Program-made: the position numbers and the translations under genes | Assembly (NCBI RefSeq): GCF_017968845.1 | Contig: NZ_CP072876.1 | Coordinates: forward strand, 1,736,001 to 1,800,000 | Length of the DNA: 64,000 nt | Reading direction: 5' to 3' | Origin: Microbacterium sp. NIBRBAC000506063 | Lineage (GTDB): Bacteria; Actinomycetota; Actinomycetes; Actinomycetales; Microbacteriaceae | Notes under the pieces: model-generated | Databases searched by the model: none | What the model saw: only the letters and a program-made list of their open reading frames with translations | Told to the model about the DNA's origin: nothing | Shown: positions 8,319 to 14,733 of the stretch, one piece after another | Layout: every line of letters begins with the position of its first letter | Numbering within the stretch: the stretch's first letter is position 1

Positions 8319-8389
8319 ATGGACAAGTGCCGTTGTCGCCCCGGCGGCCTCTGCGCTCCTATCCGAACACGTGTGCAGAGGGGCACCTG

Positions 8390-8995
8390 ATGAACAACAC
8401 AGCAACAAAGCGACGCAAAGTTCTCGCGGTACTGGCAGGAGGCGTCGTCCTCGGTGTCGGCGCGGCGATCACGCTCGCGGCATGGAACGACTCCGAGTTC
8501 GCGACCGGATTGTTCGGCGCGGGATCGTTCAACCTCGAGGGCTCGACGACCTCGGCGACCGACGACTTCGACGACCACGCGACGGCGGGAGCGGCGGCCG
8601 AGCTCGAGTTCACCCTCCCGCTCGCCGAGAACCTGGCGCCGACGGATGTCGTCTACGCCTCGTTCTGGGTGAGATTGGACGCCGCCACGACGACCGCAGG
8701 TACCCTGACCGGAGCAGGAGCCACCGGAACCGGGGCAAACGCCGACCACCTCTCCTACGAGGTCCAGGTGATCGGGCCGACCGCGGACTGCGACGCCACG
8801 GCATCCGGCACCGTGATCGCCTCCGGCGACGATCTCGCCGACTTCACCGCAGGTGCCCCCACCGCGCTCGCCGTGGGAGCAGGCAGTGATCCCGGTGCGG
8901 CCGTGCACCTCTGCTTCGCCGTGACCGCCGAAGACGGGCTGCTCCAGGGCGAGACCGCCACCGGCACCTGGCAGTTCACGGCCGAATCGAACTGA
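8390..8995 (+). CDS. SipW-dependent secreted protein, TasA/camelysin-like
   Basis: A 201-residue secreted protein. The N-terminus is a non-classical signal peptide: a basic start (TKRRKVLAVL), a glycine-rich hydrophobic segment, then LAAWNDSEFATG. The TLAAWNDSE-like sequence is the hallmark of SipW-type signals, cleaved by the peptidase encoded two genes downstream. The mature part is predicted beta-rich and acidic, with two cysteines in PTADCD and VHLCFAV that could form a disulfide. TasA relatives build extracellular fibres; a fibre or surface-coat role here is inference. First gene of the operon. Confidence 0.85.
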   Translation: MNNTATKRRKVLAVLAGGVVLGVGAAITLAAWNDSEFATGLFGAGSFNLEGSTTSATDDFDDHATAGAAAELEFTLPLAENLAPTDVVYASFWVRLDAATTTAGTLTGAGATGTGANADHLSYEVQVIGPTADCDATASGTVIASGDDLADFTAGAPTALAVGAGSDPGAAVHLCFAVTAEDGLLQGETATGTWQFTAESN

Positions 8996-9003
8996 GTCCG
9001 GCC

Positions 9004-9620
9004 ATGACCACCCGCCGTCGGATGCGGGAGGCTCGACGTCGGCGCTCCCGTCGGATACGCGCACTGCTCGCGGCAGGCGTGGTGTTCGGCGTGGGCGCCG
9101 CCGGGACACTCGCGGCGTGGAACGACTCCGAGCACGCGACCGCCACGTTCGACTCGGGCAGCTTCGGCATCTGGGGCAGCATCGACGGGGCCGACTTCGT
9201 CGACCACGCCGTGTCGGGCACCCCCGCGACGCTCAACTTCCAGCTGGCGCCGACGGCGATGGTCCCGGGAACGACGACCTACGCGCTGTTCTCCGTCAAG
9301 ACGCTCGACGACTCGGTCGGAGGCAGCGTCAGCCTGGCGGCGGGCACGCCGAGCGGCGCACTCGCCCCCTACCTGCGGTACGGCGTGCGGATCGTCCCAC
9401 GCCGACGTGCGATGCCTCCGCGTACGATGCGTCCGGGGACGTGGTCGTCGCCGCAGGATCGATGCTCACTGCACACGGCGCGTCACCGCAGACGCTCGCC
9501 GCGGCAGGCGCGAGTCCCGTCCACTACTGCTTCGCGGTCACCCTCCCCGCAGACGCCGACAACGGCGCTCAAGGGCAGAGCGGCGCGCAGAGCTGGACGT
9601 TCGCCGGAACCACGGGCTGA
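9004..9620 (+). CDS. Second SipW-dependent secreted protein (frame broken)
   Basis: A paralogue of the preceding gene, about 205 residues, eight bases downstream. It has a very basic N-terminus (RRRMREARRRRSRRIRALL), a hydrophobic stretch and TLAAWNDSEHATA. The mature part repeats the pattern of the first protein: ALFSVKTLDDS aligns with ASFWVRLDA, and the cysteine pair recurs in PTPTCDAS and VHYCFAV. The frame shifts near 9395, where ATCGTCCCACG needs one more C (IVPTPTCDA). Two tandem paralogues suggest major and minor subunits of one structure, which is inference. Confidence 0.85.
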
Positions 9621-9639
9621 GACGAAGGCGCAGAAGAGG

Positions 9640-10212
9640 ATGACGCAGAGCACGCTCACTCGACGGGAACGGCGCGAGCAGGCGCCGTCGGCGAGTCGCG
9701 CCCGCCCGCACCTGGGGAGGATCCTGTGTGAGCTCCTGCTCTGGTGCGCTGCGGCGGCCGGAGTGGTGTGCCTGGTGCTCGTCGTCGTCGCCTACACGAT
9801 GAACATCACCCTGATCATGTTCCGCACGGGATCGATGGCTCCGGCGATCCCCGCCGGATCGGTCGCGGTCGTGCAGCGTGTACCGGCATCCGACATCTCC
9901 GTCGGAGACGTCGTCACGGTCGATCGCGAGGGACTGCTCCCGGTGACCCACCGCGTCACCTCCGTCGAGGCGGGAACGGATGCCGCGACGCGCGTGATCA
10001 CCCTGCGCGGCGACGCGAACGCCGCAGACGACCCGCTTCCCTACGAGGTCGAGTCGGTTCGGATCGTGCGCTTCTCGGTTCCGGGGCTGGCCCCGGTGAT
10101 CGCCGCGTTCGGCAACCCCTTCGTGCTCGGGACGCTCACAGTCGGGGCGTCGCTTCTCGTCGTCTGGGCGTTCTGGCCGCGCGCGTCGAAGCGGGGTGAT
10201 CCCTCGCCATGA
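9640..10212 (+). CDS. Signal peptidase I, SipW type
   Basis: A 190-residue membrane peptidase of the S26 family in its ER/archaeal-like form. An N-terminal membrane span (LLLWCAAAAGVVCLVLVVVA) is followed by the catalytic serine in FRTGSMAPAIPAGSV and the catalytic histidine in PVTHRVTSVE, in place of the bacterial lysine. The substrate-binding strand has VITLRGDANAADDPLPY, and a second span closes the protein. It is embedded between its presumed substrates. The ATG at 9640 directly abuts AGAAGAGG, so the ribosome-binding spacing is unusually tight. Confidence 0.92.
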   Translation: MTQSTLTRRERREQAPSASRARPHLGRILCELLLWCAAAAGVVCLVLVVVAYTMNITLIMFRTGSMAPAIPAGSVAVVQRVPASDISVGDVVTVDREGLLPVTHRVTSVEAGTDAATRVITLRGDANAADDPLPYEVESVRIVRFSVPGLAPVIAAFGNPFVLGTLTVGASLLVVWAFWPRASKRGDPSP

Positions 10213-11462: not shown

Positions 11463-12140
11463 CTACTCCGCCAGTGCGAGGGCTCGGAAGATGTCGCGCT
11501 CGCGGAGGGCTTCCCGGCGACTCGCGGCATCCGTTCGCGTGTGGCGGGACGGCACCGGATTGCCGGTCGTGCGCGCGTAGAGCTCGTCGATGAGGCCGGT
11601 CGCGAGGTTCACGAGCCGAGAGATCTCGCGGTCGTCGCGGTCGATCCACACCGACTTCGGCTCGTCGTGCAGGGGCGGAAGTCCTCGTGCTCCTCCCACA
11701 CGAACAGCGTCCGCTCGGCGCCGAGCACATGCTGCTGCCACCACACCTGGCGAAGGTACGTGCGGGGATCGTGCGCCACGACTTGTTCGTCGTCTTGATC
11801 TCGGCCAGCAGCACCCGGCCGTCGCCGTCGACGGCCACGCCGTCGGGGTGGCGAGATGCCGCCGCTCGATCTCGGCATGGAACAGCGCGGAGGACGGGCG
11901 GATGCCGTGCGTCGCAGCCACCCAGGCGGCGATCTCGGGCTCGCGCCGTCGGCCGTGATCGGTGTAGGCGTTCCCGCCGAAGCGCGAGCCGCCGAGCTTC
12001 GCATCGGCCGCCCGTGCGATCGACTTCTCGCCGGTCAGGCCTGCGACGTCTGTCGCCGTGATCCCCTGGGAGCGTGCGCGCAGCCACGCGACCCGGTCGC
12101 GGGAGTCCGCGACGATGCGCGCTTCAAGTTCCGGGGTCAC
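11463..12140 (-). CDS. YqaJ-family exonuclease-like protein (frame broken three times)
   Basis: A PD-(D/E)xK nuclease related to lambda exonuclease/YqaJ viral recombinase, about 226 residues. The family pattern is clear: GITATDVAGLTG near the start, GRRREPEIAAWVA, then the active site DGVAVDGDGRVLLAEIKTT (D and E-x-K), followed by YLRQVWWQQHVLGAERT. Three C-run repairs (about 11860, 11774 and 11678 on the plus strand) are needed to join them. No other phage gene is nearby, so this is probably a stand-alone chromosomal relative and not part of a prophage. Its cellular role is unknown. Confidence 0.85.
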   Translation of the reverse strand: MTPELEARIVADSRDRVAWLRARSQGITATDVAGLTGEKSIARAADAKLGGSRFGGNAYTDHGRRREPEIAAWVAATHGIRPSSALFHAEIERRHLATPTAWPSTATAGCCWPRSRRRTSRGARSPHVPSPGVVAAACARRRADAVRVGGARGLPPLHDEPKSVWIDRDDREISRLVNLATGLIDELYARTTGNPVPSRHTRTDAASRREALRERDIFRALALAE

Positions 12141-12227
12141 GCCTCGACCCTACCCGGCATCGCCGACGCCACCGGACCGGACTCGCGGCATCCGTGCCAC
12201 TCGCCCCTTCGCGTCATTCATGACCCG

Positions 12228-12306
12228 CGAGTGCACCACTTGCCGCCGAATGCACCATGTATTGGTGTGCGCAAGGTGGTGCGTTCGGCGACAGGTAGTG
12301 CACTCG
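12228..12306 (+). repeat. Long inverted repeat (hairpin 1) beside AbiEi-like gene
   Basis: The arms 12228-12257 and 12277-12306 are inverted copies matching at 26 of 30 positions, with a 19-base loop. Each arm starts with the core CGAGTGCAC. A similar perfect hairpin with the same GAGTGCACCA core stands on the other side of the next gene (13432-13495). The rest of the 276-base gap between 12141 and 12416 shows no gene. Confidence 0.75.
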
Positions 12307-12416
12307 GCGATGAGGGCGGAGGACGACCGCTTCTCCACAATCGCGCGAATGCGTGAGTTGTTCATTTCGGGAGAGATCCACCCCGGTGGCCGGGCGTCAC
12401 GTTTCAGCATGGAGCG

Positions 12417-13391
12417 ATGAAGAACTCCGTGTCGTCGATGTCGCCCAGGATTCGTTCCCGCCGCAGTCTGCTCTCAGAGGGGTGGAGTGATCGGATGCTG
12501 GCAACTGCTCTCGATGCCGAGCGACTGCACCAGATCAGGCGAGGCTGGTACATGGCGCAGGACGAGTGGGACGAGCTCTGGGCCGAGGACAGGCATCGGG
12601 CGCATGTGATCGCCGTCGCTCGAGATGCCCAAAGTCGTGCCCCCATGTCGTACACATCGGCGGGGGTGCTGCACGAGCTTCCGCTGTTCCGGATGCATCC
12701 GGAACGCGTGCACACCACGACCGCTGCGCCGTTGCGCAACTCCAGCGGCCCCGATGTCATGCGGCACGTCGAGGCGCTTCCGCCCGACGACGTCACGGTC
12801 GTCGACGGCATCCTGTGCGCGACCCTGTCGCGTACTGTGTTCGATCTGATCCGCACGCTGCCGATCGAGGCTGCGATCAGCGCCGCTGATGCCGCCGAGC
12901 GAAAAGTGACTCTGCGTGGCCGGGAGTGGGATCACGACGCGCGAGCAGTCTGGCGGCTCGGGCTGCAGCGGCGCATCGACGCGGGACAGGGGGCGCGTGG
13001 CATCCGACAGGCGCGATTCGTCGCGGAGTTCGCCGACGGGCGCGCGCAGCTGCCCGGCGAGAGCGTCAGCAGGCTGCAGCTGTGGCAGCTGGGCTTCGCC
13101 GCGCCGAGTCTGCAGGTCGTGATTCCGGGGCCTCACGGGAACACCTTCGAGGTCGATTTCGGGCTGGACGATGTGGGCGCCTTCGGTGAGTTCGACGGTG
13201 AGACGAAGTATCGCGATGAAGCGATGCGCAGGGGCAGGAGCATCGAGGATGTCGTGCTGGCGGAGAAGCAGCGCGAGGACTGGATCCGAGGTCGCACACA
13301 GCGACGCTTCGCCCGTTGGAGCACGCCGCACATCCGGACCCACCATCATCTCGGGCGCAGACTGGCCGCGTTCGGCATCCGTGCCCCGTGA
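12417..13391 (+). CDS. AbiEi-like winged-HTH protein with DUF559-type nuclease domain
   Basis: A 324-residue unbroken protein. The N-terminal quarter looks like the AbiEi antitoxin-type winged helix (LLSEGWSDRMLATALDAERLHQIRRGWYM). The middle matches the AbiEi core (TVVDGILCATLSRTVFDLIRTLP). The C-terminus resembles a Vsr/DUF559 PD-(D/E)xK nuclease: GESVSRLQLWQLGF, then EVDFGLDDVGAFGEFDGETKY with the D, E and K in place. No AbiEii toxin partner lies next to it. The gene is bracketed by two long hairpins, which suggests a small discrete cassette. The start at 12417 has GGAG very close upstream. Confidence 0.78.
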   Translation: MKNSVSSMSPRIRSRRSLLSEGWSDRMLATALDAERLHQIRRGWYMAQDEWDELWAEDRHRAHVIAVARDAQSRAPMSYTSAGVLHELPLFRMHPERVHTTTAAPLRNSSGPDVMRHVEALPPDDVTVVDGILCATLSRTVFDLIRTLPIEAAISAADAAERKVTLRGREWDHDARAVWRLGLQRRIDAGQGARGIRQARFVAEFADGRAQLPGESVSRLQLWQLGFAAPSLQVVIPGPHGNTFEVDFGLDDVGAFGEFDGETKYRDEAMRRGRSIEDVVLAEKQREDWIRGRTQRRFARWSTPHIRTHHHLGRRLAAFGIRAP

Positions 13392-13431
13392 GCGCTCCAC
13401 CGTCACCCCCCCGTCGAACGCACTGCTTGTT

Positions 13432-13495
13432 GCCGAGTGCACCATCTCTTCGACGTGGACAACCGGTGCAGTCGCGAAGAGATGGTGCACTCGGC
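13432..13495 (+). repeat. Perfect inverted repeat (hairpin 2) beside AbiEi-like gene
   Basis: Arms of 21 bases, GCCGAGTGCACCATCTCTTC plus G (13432-13452) and its exact complement (13475-13495), are separated by 22 bases. The GAGTGCACCA core is shared with hairpin 1. Confidence 0.8.
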
Positions 13496-13525
13496 GGGGA
13501 AGTAAGGGGAGTGGGGACGGGCGAT

Positions 13526-13554
13526 TTGGGGGAGAGGGGCGGATGCCGTAAAGT
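13526..13554 (+). promoter_or_regulatory. rplJL promoter
   Basis: TTGGGG (13526-13531) and TAAAGT (13549-13554) are separated by 17 bases. They stand at the head of the 220-base rplJ leader. A GGATGCCGTAA context is also seen at the rplM promoter. Confidence 0.6.
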
Positions 13555-13670
13555 AGTACCAACCGAAGACCGCCGGTCATCGTGGTGCCCGCAAGTGCAC
13601 AGCGATCGAAGCTTCTGTGAGAGCAGAGGGCCTGCGCAGGTGACACGAACCGATCCCGAACGGGATGACC

Positions 13671-13706
13671 AGGCTCCGTGCGCTTGCGCCGGGGCCTTTT
13701 TCTTTT
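13671..13706 (+). terminator. Attenuator-type terminator in the rplJ leader
   Basis: The stem AGGCTCCG (13671-13678) pairs with CGGGGCCT (13690-13697) through one G-T pair, directly followed by a T-rich tract (TTTTTCTTTT). It lies between the rplJ promoter and rplJ, where ribosomal L10 leaders regulate the operon. An upstream palindrome (GATCCCGAACGGGATG, near 13652) could form an alternative fold. L10-L12 feedback at this leader is known in other bacteria; here it is inference. Confidence 0.6.
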
Positions 13707-13780
13707 GCCGGGTTTCCCGCCGTGGGTCTGAGGCCGATGCTTCACCACCGTGACGCATCTCGCATACACAAGGAGTGGCC

Positions 13781-14296
13781 ATGGCGCAGAAGGACGCATC
13801 GGTTGCCGAGCTCACGAAGAACTTCGAGGACTCGACCGCCGTTCTGCTGACCGAGTACCGCGGTCTGTCGGTGGGGGAGCTCCGTGAGCTCCGCAACAGC
13901 ATCCGGCAGGACGCGGAATACGCCGTGGTGAAGAACACGCTGACCAAGATCGCTGCGAGCAACGCAGGGATCACGGGGCTCGACGACGACCTCAAGGGTC
14001 CGTCGGCCATCGCATTCGTGCACGGTGACCCGGTCGCCGTCGCGAAGGGTCTTCGTGCCTTCGCCAAGGCACACCCTCTTCTCGTGATCAAGGGCGGTTA
14101 CTTCGACGGTAACCCGCTCAGCGCCGAGGAAGTCGGAAAGCTCGCCGACCTCGAGAGCCGTGAAGTCCTGCTGGCGAAGCTCGCCGGCGCGATGAAGGCC
14201 TCGATGTCCAAGGCTGCCGCCCTCTTCCAGGCGCCGCTGTCCAAGACCGTCCGTACGGTCGAGGCGCTGCGTGAGAAGCAGGACGCCGCCGCCTGA
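13781..14296 (+). CDS. rplJ: 50S ribosomal protein L10
   Basis: L10 carries the L7/L12 dimers of the ribosomal stalk. The 171-residue frame is intact. The N-terminal rRNA-binding domain has [21 protein letters not shown] and [11 protein letters not shown], and the C-terminal helix that binds L12 ends in [19 protein letters not shown] precedes the ATG with good spacing. rplL follows after 51 bases. Confidence 0.97.
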
Positions 14297-14347
14297 TCGG
14301 GCTGCGGAAGCAACACCTTTACACCCCAACAAAGCAGGAGATAAATC

Positions 14348-14733
14348 ATGGCTAAGCTCAGCACTGAAGAGCTGCTCGACCAGTTCAAGGAGCTCACGCT
14401 CATCGAGCTCAGCGAGTTCGTGAAGGCCTTCGAGGAGACCTTCGACGTCACCGCTGCCGCTCCGGTCGCCGTTGCCGCCGCAGGCGCGCCCGCCGGTGCC
14501 GCCCCGAGGCCGCCGAGGAGAAGGACTCGTTCGACGTCGTTCTCGAGGCCGCAGGCGACAAGAAGATCCAGGTCATCAAGGTCGTCCGCGAGCTCACCTC
14601 GCTCGGCCTCGGCGACGCCAAGGCTGTCGTCGACGGTGCCCCCAAGGCTGTCCTCGAGGGCGCCAACAAGGAGACCGCAGAGAAGGCCAAGGCCGCTCTG
14701 GAAGAGGCCGGCGCCTCCGTCACCCTCAAGTGA
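14348..14733 (+). CDS. rplL: 50S ribosomal protein L7/L12 (frame broken)
   Basis: The stalk protein that recruits and activates translation GTPases, about 128 residues. The N-terminal dimerisation domain [20 protein letters not shown], an Ala-rich hinge, and the C-terminal domain [20 protein letters not shown] are all visible. The hinge frame breaks near 14508, where GCCGCCCCGAGG needs one more C ([20 protein letters not shown]). The protein ends in [19 protein letters not shown] lies upstream of the ATG. Confidence 0.96.

Follow-up and report, generated by a model that had tools for sequence, protein, structure and literature searches.

How short palindromic repeats in genomes originate, spread and stay uniform is an open question, and what is known comes mainly from RAYTs and REPINs. 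RAYTs are enzymes of the HuH Y1 type. In the arrangement called REPtron, a RAYT (TnpA-REP) gene lies next to its own palindromic REPs or REPINs, which are dispersed, extragenic and organised in inverted pairs, and the RAYT protein co-evolves with its repeats, as described earlier (PMC3116915, PMC8266576). As regards AbiEi antitoxins, AbiEi is reported to bind two 23-bp inverted repeats and Rv2827c four, each in its own promoter (PMC7319586).

In this work, we have analysed a stretch of 64,000 nucleotides from Microbacterium sp. NIBRBAC000506063 (the window), in which a gene lies between two palindromic arrays. The REPtron is the nearest known arrangement, while the enzyme found here is unrelated. 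As in a REPtron, the gene is flanked by its own palindromic repeats, these repeats are dispersed, extragenic and in inverted pairs, and a part of the protein co-varies with the repeat. Unlike in a REPtron, the enzyme is by predicted fold an AbiEi part joined to a Vsr-like nuclease, with no HuH Y1 domain, and the units in Microbacteriaceae are set in a four-unit array with a 19-bp period. Since there is no HuH Y1 enzyme, this is not a member of the REPtrons, despite looking and perhaps working like one. With the AbiEi antitoxins, including Rv2827c, the protein shares the fold of its residues 9–207, and AbiEi proteins bind paired inverted repeats; on the other hand, it carries a fused nuclease domain, and its repeats lie on both sides of the gene and genome-wide. 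Among the papers listed from the open-licence PMC literature, no title or abstract start links AbiEi-, DUF559- or Vsr-like genes to dispersed repeats.

The initial annotation had described two related hairpins, one of 30 bases and imperfect, the other of 21 bases and perfect, around a single gene, and this description holds well. The arms of hairpin 1 (12228–12257 and 12277–12306, 30 nt) are 87% complementary, and those of hairpin 2 (13432–13452 and 13475–13495, 21 nt) are 100% complementary. In folding, both outdo dinucleotide shuffles (z of −5.5 and −7.0, respectively; 0 of 200 shuffles as good). GAGTGCACC occurs three times in the window, every time inside the arms of these hairpins, though the count alone is not rare, as it is reached in 12 of 100 shuffles. 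Judged by a search for units, the two hairpins are the same kind of object, that is, arrays of 79 nt with four 9-nt units (CGA plus a variable hexamer) at offsets 0, 19, 51 and 70, two units forward and then two reversed. The upstream array spans 12228–12306 (units 12228–12236 and 12247–12255 on the plus strand, 12279–12287 and 12298–12306 on the minus strand), and the downstream array spans 13415–13493 (13415–13423 and 13434–13442 plus, 13466–13474 and 13485–13493 minus); neither array as a whole has a strand. Since the downstream array starts at 13415, the perfect hairpin 2 is its inner and right part. Rfam gives nothing at the gathering threshold. A role as terminators only was considered and rejected: the sole T-tract candidate, at 12341, is away from the arrays, in a scan that allowed loops of 3–8 and is blind to these hairpins.

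The gene between the arrays (12417–13391, plus strand) is a single CDS of 324 aa. In PADLOC, the protein matches AbiEi (E 2e-12) and all 10 matched families are AbiEi, while Pfam and NCBIfam give no match up to E 1. Its structure model (pLDDT 93) was compared with the chains in Foldseek's list. Residues 9–207 (12441–13037, plus strand) form a complete AbiEi-antitoxin-like part, winged helix and C-terminal domain, which aligns to the whole S. agalactiae AbiEi antitoxin 6y8q_A (Z 10.5, rmsd 7.2, 172 aligned; Foldseek E 1.7e-4) and to the Rv2827c structure 1zel_A (Z 7.8). Residues 209–324 (13041–13388, plus strand) are predicted to form a PD-(D/E)xK-type nuclease domain of the Vsr/I-Bth0305I kind by fold and invariant residues, with Z 9.5 to the I-Bth0305I catalytic domain 3r3p_B and Z 9.1 to Vsr 1cw0_A. 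They also match a T. gondii mitoribosome chain with Z 10.0, and since this chain scores as high, the fold alone cannot name the nuclease family. In all 43 homologues compared, D247, E258, D260, K264, E283 and K284 are invariant. This agrees with the annotated coupling of an AbiEi-type part to a Vsr/DUF559-type nuclease, as the fold matches both and D247, E258, D260 and K264 are residues of the catalytic type. Conserved acidic and lysine residues and fold thus relate the predicted nuclease to Vsr, I-Bth0305I, DUF559 and REase_MTES_1575, but the Pfam families DUF559 and REase_MTES_1575 are each matched, weakly, by only one of the 43 members (E 0.068 and 0.0059, respectively), and by the window protein not at all. 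Overall, it is a probable DNA-cutting protein.

The two adjacent ORFs that were scanned encode a YqaJ-like protein (weak, E 0.077) and ribosomal protein L10. Neither is a transposase, as the initial annotation had stated, and neither is an AbiEii-type nucleotidyltransferase toxin, which sets the locus apart from AbiE toxin–antitoxin systems. The Y1 transposase family is absent among the 8 Pfam families matched by the 43 members. A phage origin was also considered and rejected, with no relative confirmed in viral_contigs and no PHROGs match for 2 proteins. Farther away, at 8327–10212, two ORFs share a GVGAAxTLAAWNDSE-like start and the second runs into a signal-peptidase-like stretch, so that the pair resembles a SipW-type cluster.

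Homologues at E<=1e-20 are found in 87 of 119 genus genomes, with 1–4 gene copies per genome with a match, and most of the 80 kept relatives are from Microbacterium. We scored bracketing as the alignment of the upstream flank to the downstream flank of one gene. In the first set (the 66 of 71 loci with both flanks), the own median is 64, compared with 23 for mismatched flanks; 58 loci are above the mismatched 95th percentile and 31 above the 99th. When 248 neighbouring genes of the same loci serve as control, the own median is 57.5 versus 22 (control maximum 32), and 79 of 88 homologues exceed the 99th percentile of this control, while the other 9 are not above it. In the second set (51 loci, i.e., 80 minus 26 repeats of the first set and 3 with short flanks), the medians are 58 and 24, but only 9 of 51 are above the mismatched 95th percentile, because the relatives there share units; the null of this test holds close relatives. 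The paralogue at C1:1820911 of the same genome, 52% identical, has a different shared repeat on both sides (score 61, rank 1 of 66). Bracketing by locus-specific repeats is therefore the rule across homologues.

Within the family, homologues occur in 150 of 249 genomes and 62 of 85 genera, and at phylum level in 37 of 346 genomes. Outside Microbacteriaceae (25 loci from 11 families sampled, with the own-genus loci L299 and L313 left out beforehand), the score is 59 versus 20 for mismatched flanks, and 20 and 19 of the 25 loci lie above the mismatched 95th and 99th percentiles, respectively. The same layout with differing repeat sequences in many Actinomycetota suggests that a nuclease and a repeat family of its own form a partnership not described before.

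These controls bear on a rival explanation, that the hairpins act as terminators or are mobilised by some other enzyme, the position of the genes among them being due to chance or tolerance. The hairpins are indeed numerous and lie between genes, and orphan arrays exist. However, the neighbouring genes, with their maximum of 32 in 248, are not bracketed, the unit co-varies with the protein (see below), and no T run follows either window array as read from the sequence, so we regard this explanation as very improbable.

The arrays of the homologues also share a geometry. A 19-bp direct-repeat period is present in 109 of 140 flanks, compared with 4.9% of 284 control windows, in 88 of 102 flanks of the second set, and, in a comparison that overlaps these sets, in 144 of 176 homologue flanks versus 22 of 496 neighbour-gene flanks. 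The family search adds 41 of 58 flanks in 29 loci, one of them own-genus. Outside Microbacteriaceae, this period is mostly missing (9 of 50 flanks, with about 3 expected). Facing units have preferred offsets of 31/50/69 and 32/51/70, independent of the hexamer. In 88 of 125 loci, the CGA-hexamer units number five or more and are present on both sides of the gene; of the shuffled sets, 2 of 125 reach five units or more; the hexamer finder misplaces the phase in some loci, e.g., L011, L019 and L079. Unusually many units, 20 in two flanks, are seen in L169 (Microbacterium sp. 13-71-7).

We have further looked at copies away from the genes. In the own genome, GAGTGCACCA occurs 13 times versus 3 for a reversed-pattern control. 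Three of the sites are inside the window arrays; the other ten matches fall in nine stretches, of which three show hairpin-like clusters (C1:873310, 1674194 and 1903433) and the remaining six contain single matches; there is an additional hairpin at C1:1841881. These clusters and the paralogue at C1:1820911 together show that the hairpins occur without the gene, and that a related gene is accompanied by a pair of a different kind. Widespread hairpins without the gene are what the initial annotation would have counted against a link, and the association still stands. In the two cases with clean counts, the CACCCC unit and G814 (see below), dispersed copies match the unit of the gene in their own genome. 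For the GTGCAC unit, they match the unit of the own gene in part only.

Direct pairs of CGACACCCC with 19-bp spacing occur in 6 of 119 genus genomes and in none of the other 113, and the control has no match. The numbers of pairs away from the gene are 7 in G076, 7 in G071, 4 in G033, 3 in G036, 3 in G107 and 1 in G006, where one array may account for two pairs. At least three pairs are present in five genomes, and these are the ones with a fetched gene that has that unit (L078, L077, L073, L062 and L061), L061 being a mixed case with CGACACCCC together with CGAGACCCC. Pairs of CGAGTGCAC occur in 20 of 119 genus genomes, with 2 control matches, both in G054. The carriers include genomes with the cognate gene, but also G077 (28 pairs), G060 (15) and G117 (18), where no cognate gene for CGAGTGCAC was found: in G077 and G060, the best homologues give only weak or partial matches (E 1.8e-5 and 7.3e-21, respectively) and their flanks lack the 19-bp period, and the gene in G117 is bracketed by CGAGACCCAT-type units instead, as read by eye. 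In G814, a 7-Mb genome from a different family of the same class, the gene-flanking unit is present 174 times with at most one mismatch, while 11 other genomes and the reversed control have no copy. The copies often form facing pairs 35–36 bp apart.

As for their placement, the fetched genus loci hold 46 distinct pairs, including some beside the gene, and 41 of these are outside predicted genes, compared with 144 of 800 random positions. The gaps that hold pairs are convergent, divergent and tandem in 16, 4 and 17 cases versus a background of 16, 5 and 19, that is, there is no preference.

This dispersal should be weighed against autoregulation, in which the protein represses itself via the repeats in its own promoter region, the nuclease is used otherwise (e.g., in defence), and the distant copies constitute a regulon or persist as neutral relics. 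Such a role would follow the AbiEi and Rv2827c precedents (PMC7319586), and the upstream arrays mostly lie about 100–230 nt 5' of the gene start. However, it leaves the matching downstream array and the 174 copies in G814 unexplained, array placement follows the gap-type background and not promoters, and a weak scan found no sigma-70-like promoter in 12100–13800. Since a strictly conserved nuclease domain is fused to the reader and copies are genome-wide, simple autoregulation is insufficient, and we think it unlikely as the whole explanation.

In addition, the unit varies between lineages. We compared hexamer similarity with protein identity for successive segments of the protein, the rest of the protein being held constant, in loci with at least two 19-bp pairs and at least two exact units and with proteins below 90% identity. 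The misplaced phases in some loci reduced this set to 50 of 125. The partial correlation peaks at residues 101–120 (12717–12776, plus strand) with 0.353, compared with a permutation 95th percentile of 0.158 and maximum of 0.196, where the permutation is not corrected for descent and shared descent is incompletely removed. Other segments of the AbiEi part are also above the permutation maximum (residues 51–80, 0.21–0.22; 131–150, 0.28; 171–200, 0.24–0.27). In the nuclease part, segments within 201–260 range from −0.03 to 0.08, and those in 271–300 reach 0.16–0.17, just above the permutation 95th percentile. Protein pairs were also compared at similar overall identity. At 0.42–0.5, the shared fraction of the loop is 0.38 when the hexamers are identical or differ by one base and 0.22 otherwise, with 0.55 versus 0.55 for the nuclease; at 0.5–0.7, the values are 0.58 versus 0.37 for the loop and 0.65 versus 0.69 for the nuclease. 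Below 0.42 there is no loop effect (0.18 versus 0.19). By these sequence comparisons, the unit tracks the AbiEi part, most of all residues 101–120, more than the nuclease part.

Particular loops go with particular hexamers, namely RISS.PDV with GTGCAC (once GAGCAC), RHSRVIA.V with CACCCC, RHTRT..G with GACCCC, GGSSR.GL with GATGAC, and HPPSGRA with GGACGC, and small variants of these loops exist. This natural variety of unit–loop pairs is possibly a readable DNA-recognition code for AbiEi proteins. Together with the locus-specific bracketing, the co-variation lends support to the idea in the initial annotation of a gene that recognises its own flanking structures.

Considering the observed bracketing, the array geometry, the dispersed cognate units, the extragenic position of the sampled pairs, the reader–unit co-variation and the conserved nuclease residues, our preferred reading, which we hold to be rather probable, is a REPtron-like system with an unrelated enzyme: the protein reads its arrays, the nuclease cuts there, and repair spreads and homogenises the repeats. 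A resident gene between two copies of a palindromic array would encode an AbiEi-type DNA reader fused to a Vsr-like nuclease. The AbiEi part would read the short unit, which in Microbacteriaceae is usually CGA plus a variable hexamer, every 19 bp, two facing two, and the specificity for the unit may be set mainly by the loop at about residues 101–120. Reading of the arrays is likely in view of the paired inverted repeats to which AbiEi proteins bind in their promoters. Held on the symmetric array by this reader, the nuclease part would nick or cut there, and repair from other copies would keep the repeats alike within a genome and spread them. DNA binding, cleavage and nuclease-driven spread or homogenisation of the arrays are what we infer. 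Several results speak against this reading, namely the orphan CGAGTGCAC pairs in G077, G060 and G117, the small share of loci above the mismatched 95th percentile in the second set, the 9 of 88 genes not above the neighbour control, the co-variation beyond the loop and its absence there in distant pairs, the rarity of the 19-bp period outside the family, and the weak match of the glmS–acpS elements to the own gene (see below).

A wider proposal is more tentative, and we consider it possible rather than probable: a second, independently evolved class of REP-type systems across Actinomycetota, in which sequence-specific AbiEi–Vsr nucleases would cut the palindromic arrays cognate to them, break repair or gene conversion would multiply these arrays in the genome and make them uniform, specificity would switch through one recognition loop, and old arrays would be left behind as orphans. 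If true, comparable work would be done in another phylum by a second type of enzyme, which would provide a test of what is essential, and a common group of unnamed nuclease genes would gain a role.

The window cassette lies just upstream of rplJ, between the YqaJ-like ORF and the presumed rplJ leader (13560–13780, plus strand), which is directly 3' of the cassette, outside the system, and marks its usual address. A query covering 13560–14720, of which the leader is the first part, matched 362 of 366 genus genomes; leader-like sequence also precedes rplJ in related loci, with no Rfam match at the gathering threshold. Actually, 53 of 125 homologues lie at most 1.5 kb upstream of rplJ. On the gene tree, residence at rplJ is clustered but still requires 18 changes, compared with a mean of 40 and a minimum of 30 after shuffling. 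In four species, YqaJ adjoins the rplJ leader with neither gene nor array. At the YqaJ–rplJ site of L137 (2763–2911), there is a large palindrome without the nuclease gene, with 58-nt arms 72% and inner 19-nt arms 95% complementary. Remnants are also seen at the site, i.e., a weak gene start in G004, the nearest relative by rplJ region (87%; model positions 5–43, E 0.0017), and a stop-broken piece in G003 (positions 2–53).

Such turnover could also be read as homing, where the nuclease cuts bare arrays, the repeat–gene–repeat block is copied in, and the gene itself is the mobile unit. The block-wise presence and absence at the YqaJ–rplJ site, the 18 changes of residence, the palindrome without gene in L137, and the likeness of the nuclease fold to the homing endonuclease I-Bth0305I would fit this. 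However, there are 1–4 gene copies per genome versus many bare arrays in some genomes, residence is clustered on the tree well beyond the shuffled values, and the four empty sites lack an array; we judge homing quite improbable. As to the hallmark of homing endonucleases, a gene that interrupts its own target site, whole arrays stand on both sides of the gene here, the four empty sites are without one, and the site of L137 has its palindrome without the gene. The small passenger element of the initial annotation keeps part of its ground: the block is absent at the four sites, while the gene keeps preferred loci. Overall, what had been taken for a passenger element is better described as a family of repeats with a protein dedicated to it.

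Between glmS and acpS, a GTGCAC array, partly decayed, is present in G117 and two sisters; at this position, other species have arrays built from different units, different hairpins, or none (all read by eye). When the elements at this site were compared with the fetched gene of the own genome (29 sites minus G076 without anchor and G077 without gene), the median was 25 versus 23 for genes of other genomes (p 0.023), with 4 of 27 above the 95th percentile and 3 of 27 ranking first. The match to the own gene is thus weakly better, and the test is weak because arrays are missing at many of the sites and every genome holds additional, unfetched paralogues. In three species (L333, L334 and L335), the glmS–acpS gap holds a palindromic element with the core GGATGCATGCCCGGAT, of a plan unlike the 19-bp arrays.

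Several smaller observations were made on the way. Frame breaks near the 3' end of the homologue are seen in L011 (near 1440–1500) and L237 (G117), and may reflect either decay or errors in sequencing; the completeness rating of the own genome is 76.8%. L213, from a record titled Planococcus sp. APC 4015, a Firmicute name, holds a high-GC homologue next to rplJ and is probably mislabelled or mixed. Finally, draft contigs end about 80–260 bases from a nuclease gene in G040:C1, G027:C46, G079:C13, G016:C157 and G088:C25, which would be expected of assemblies interrupted at the flanking repeats, and the system, if true, could explain some of the breaks in draft assemblies.
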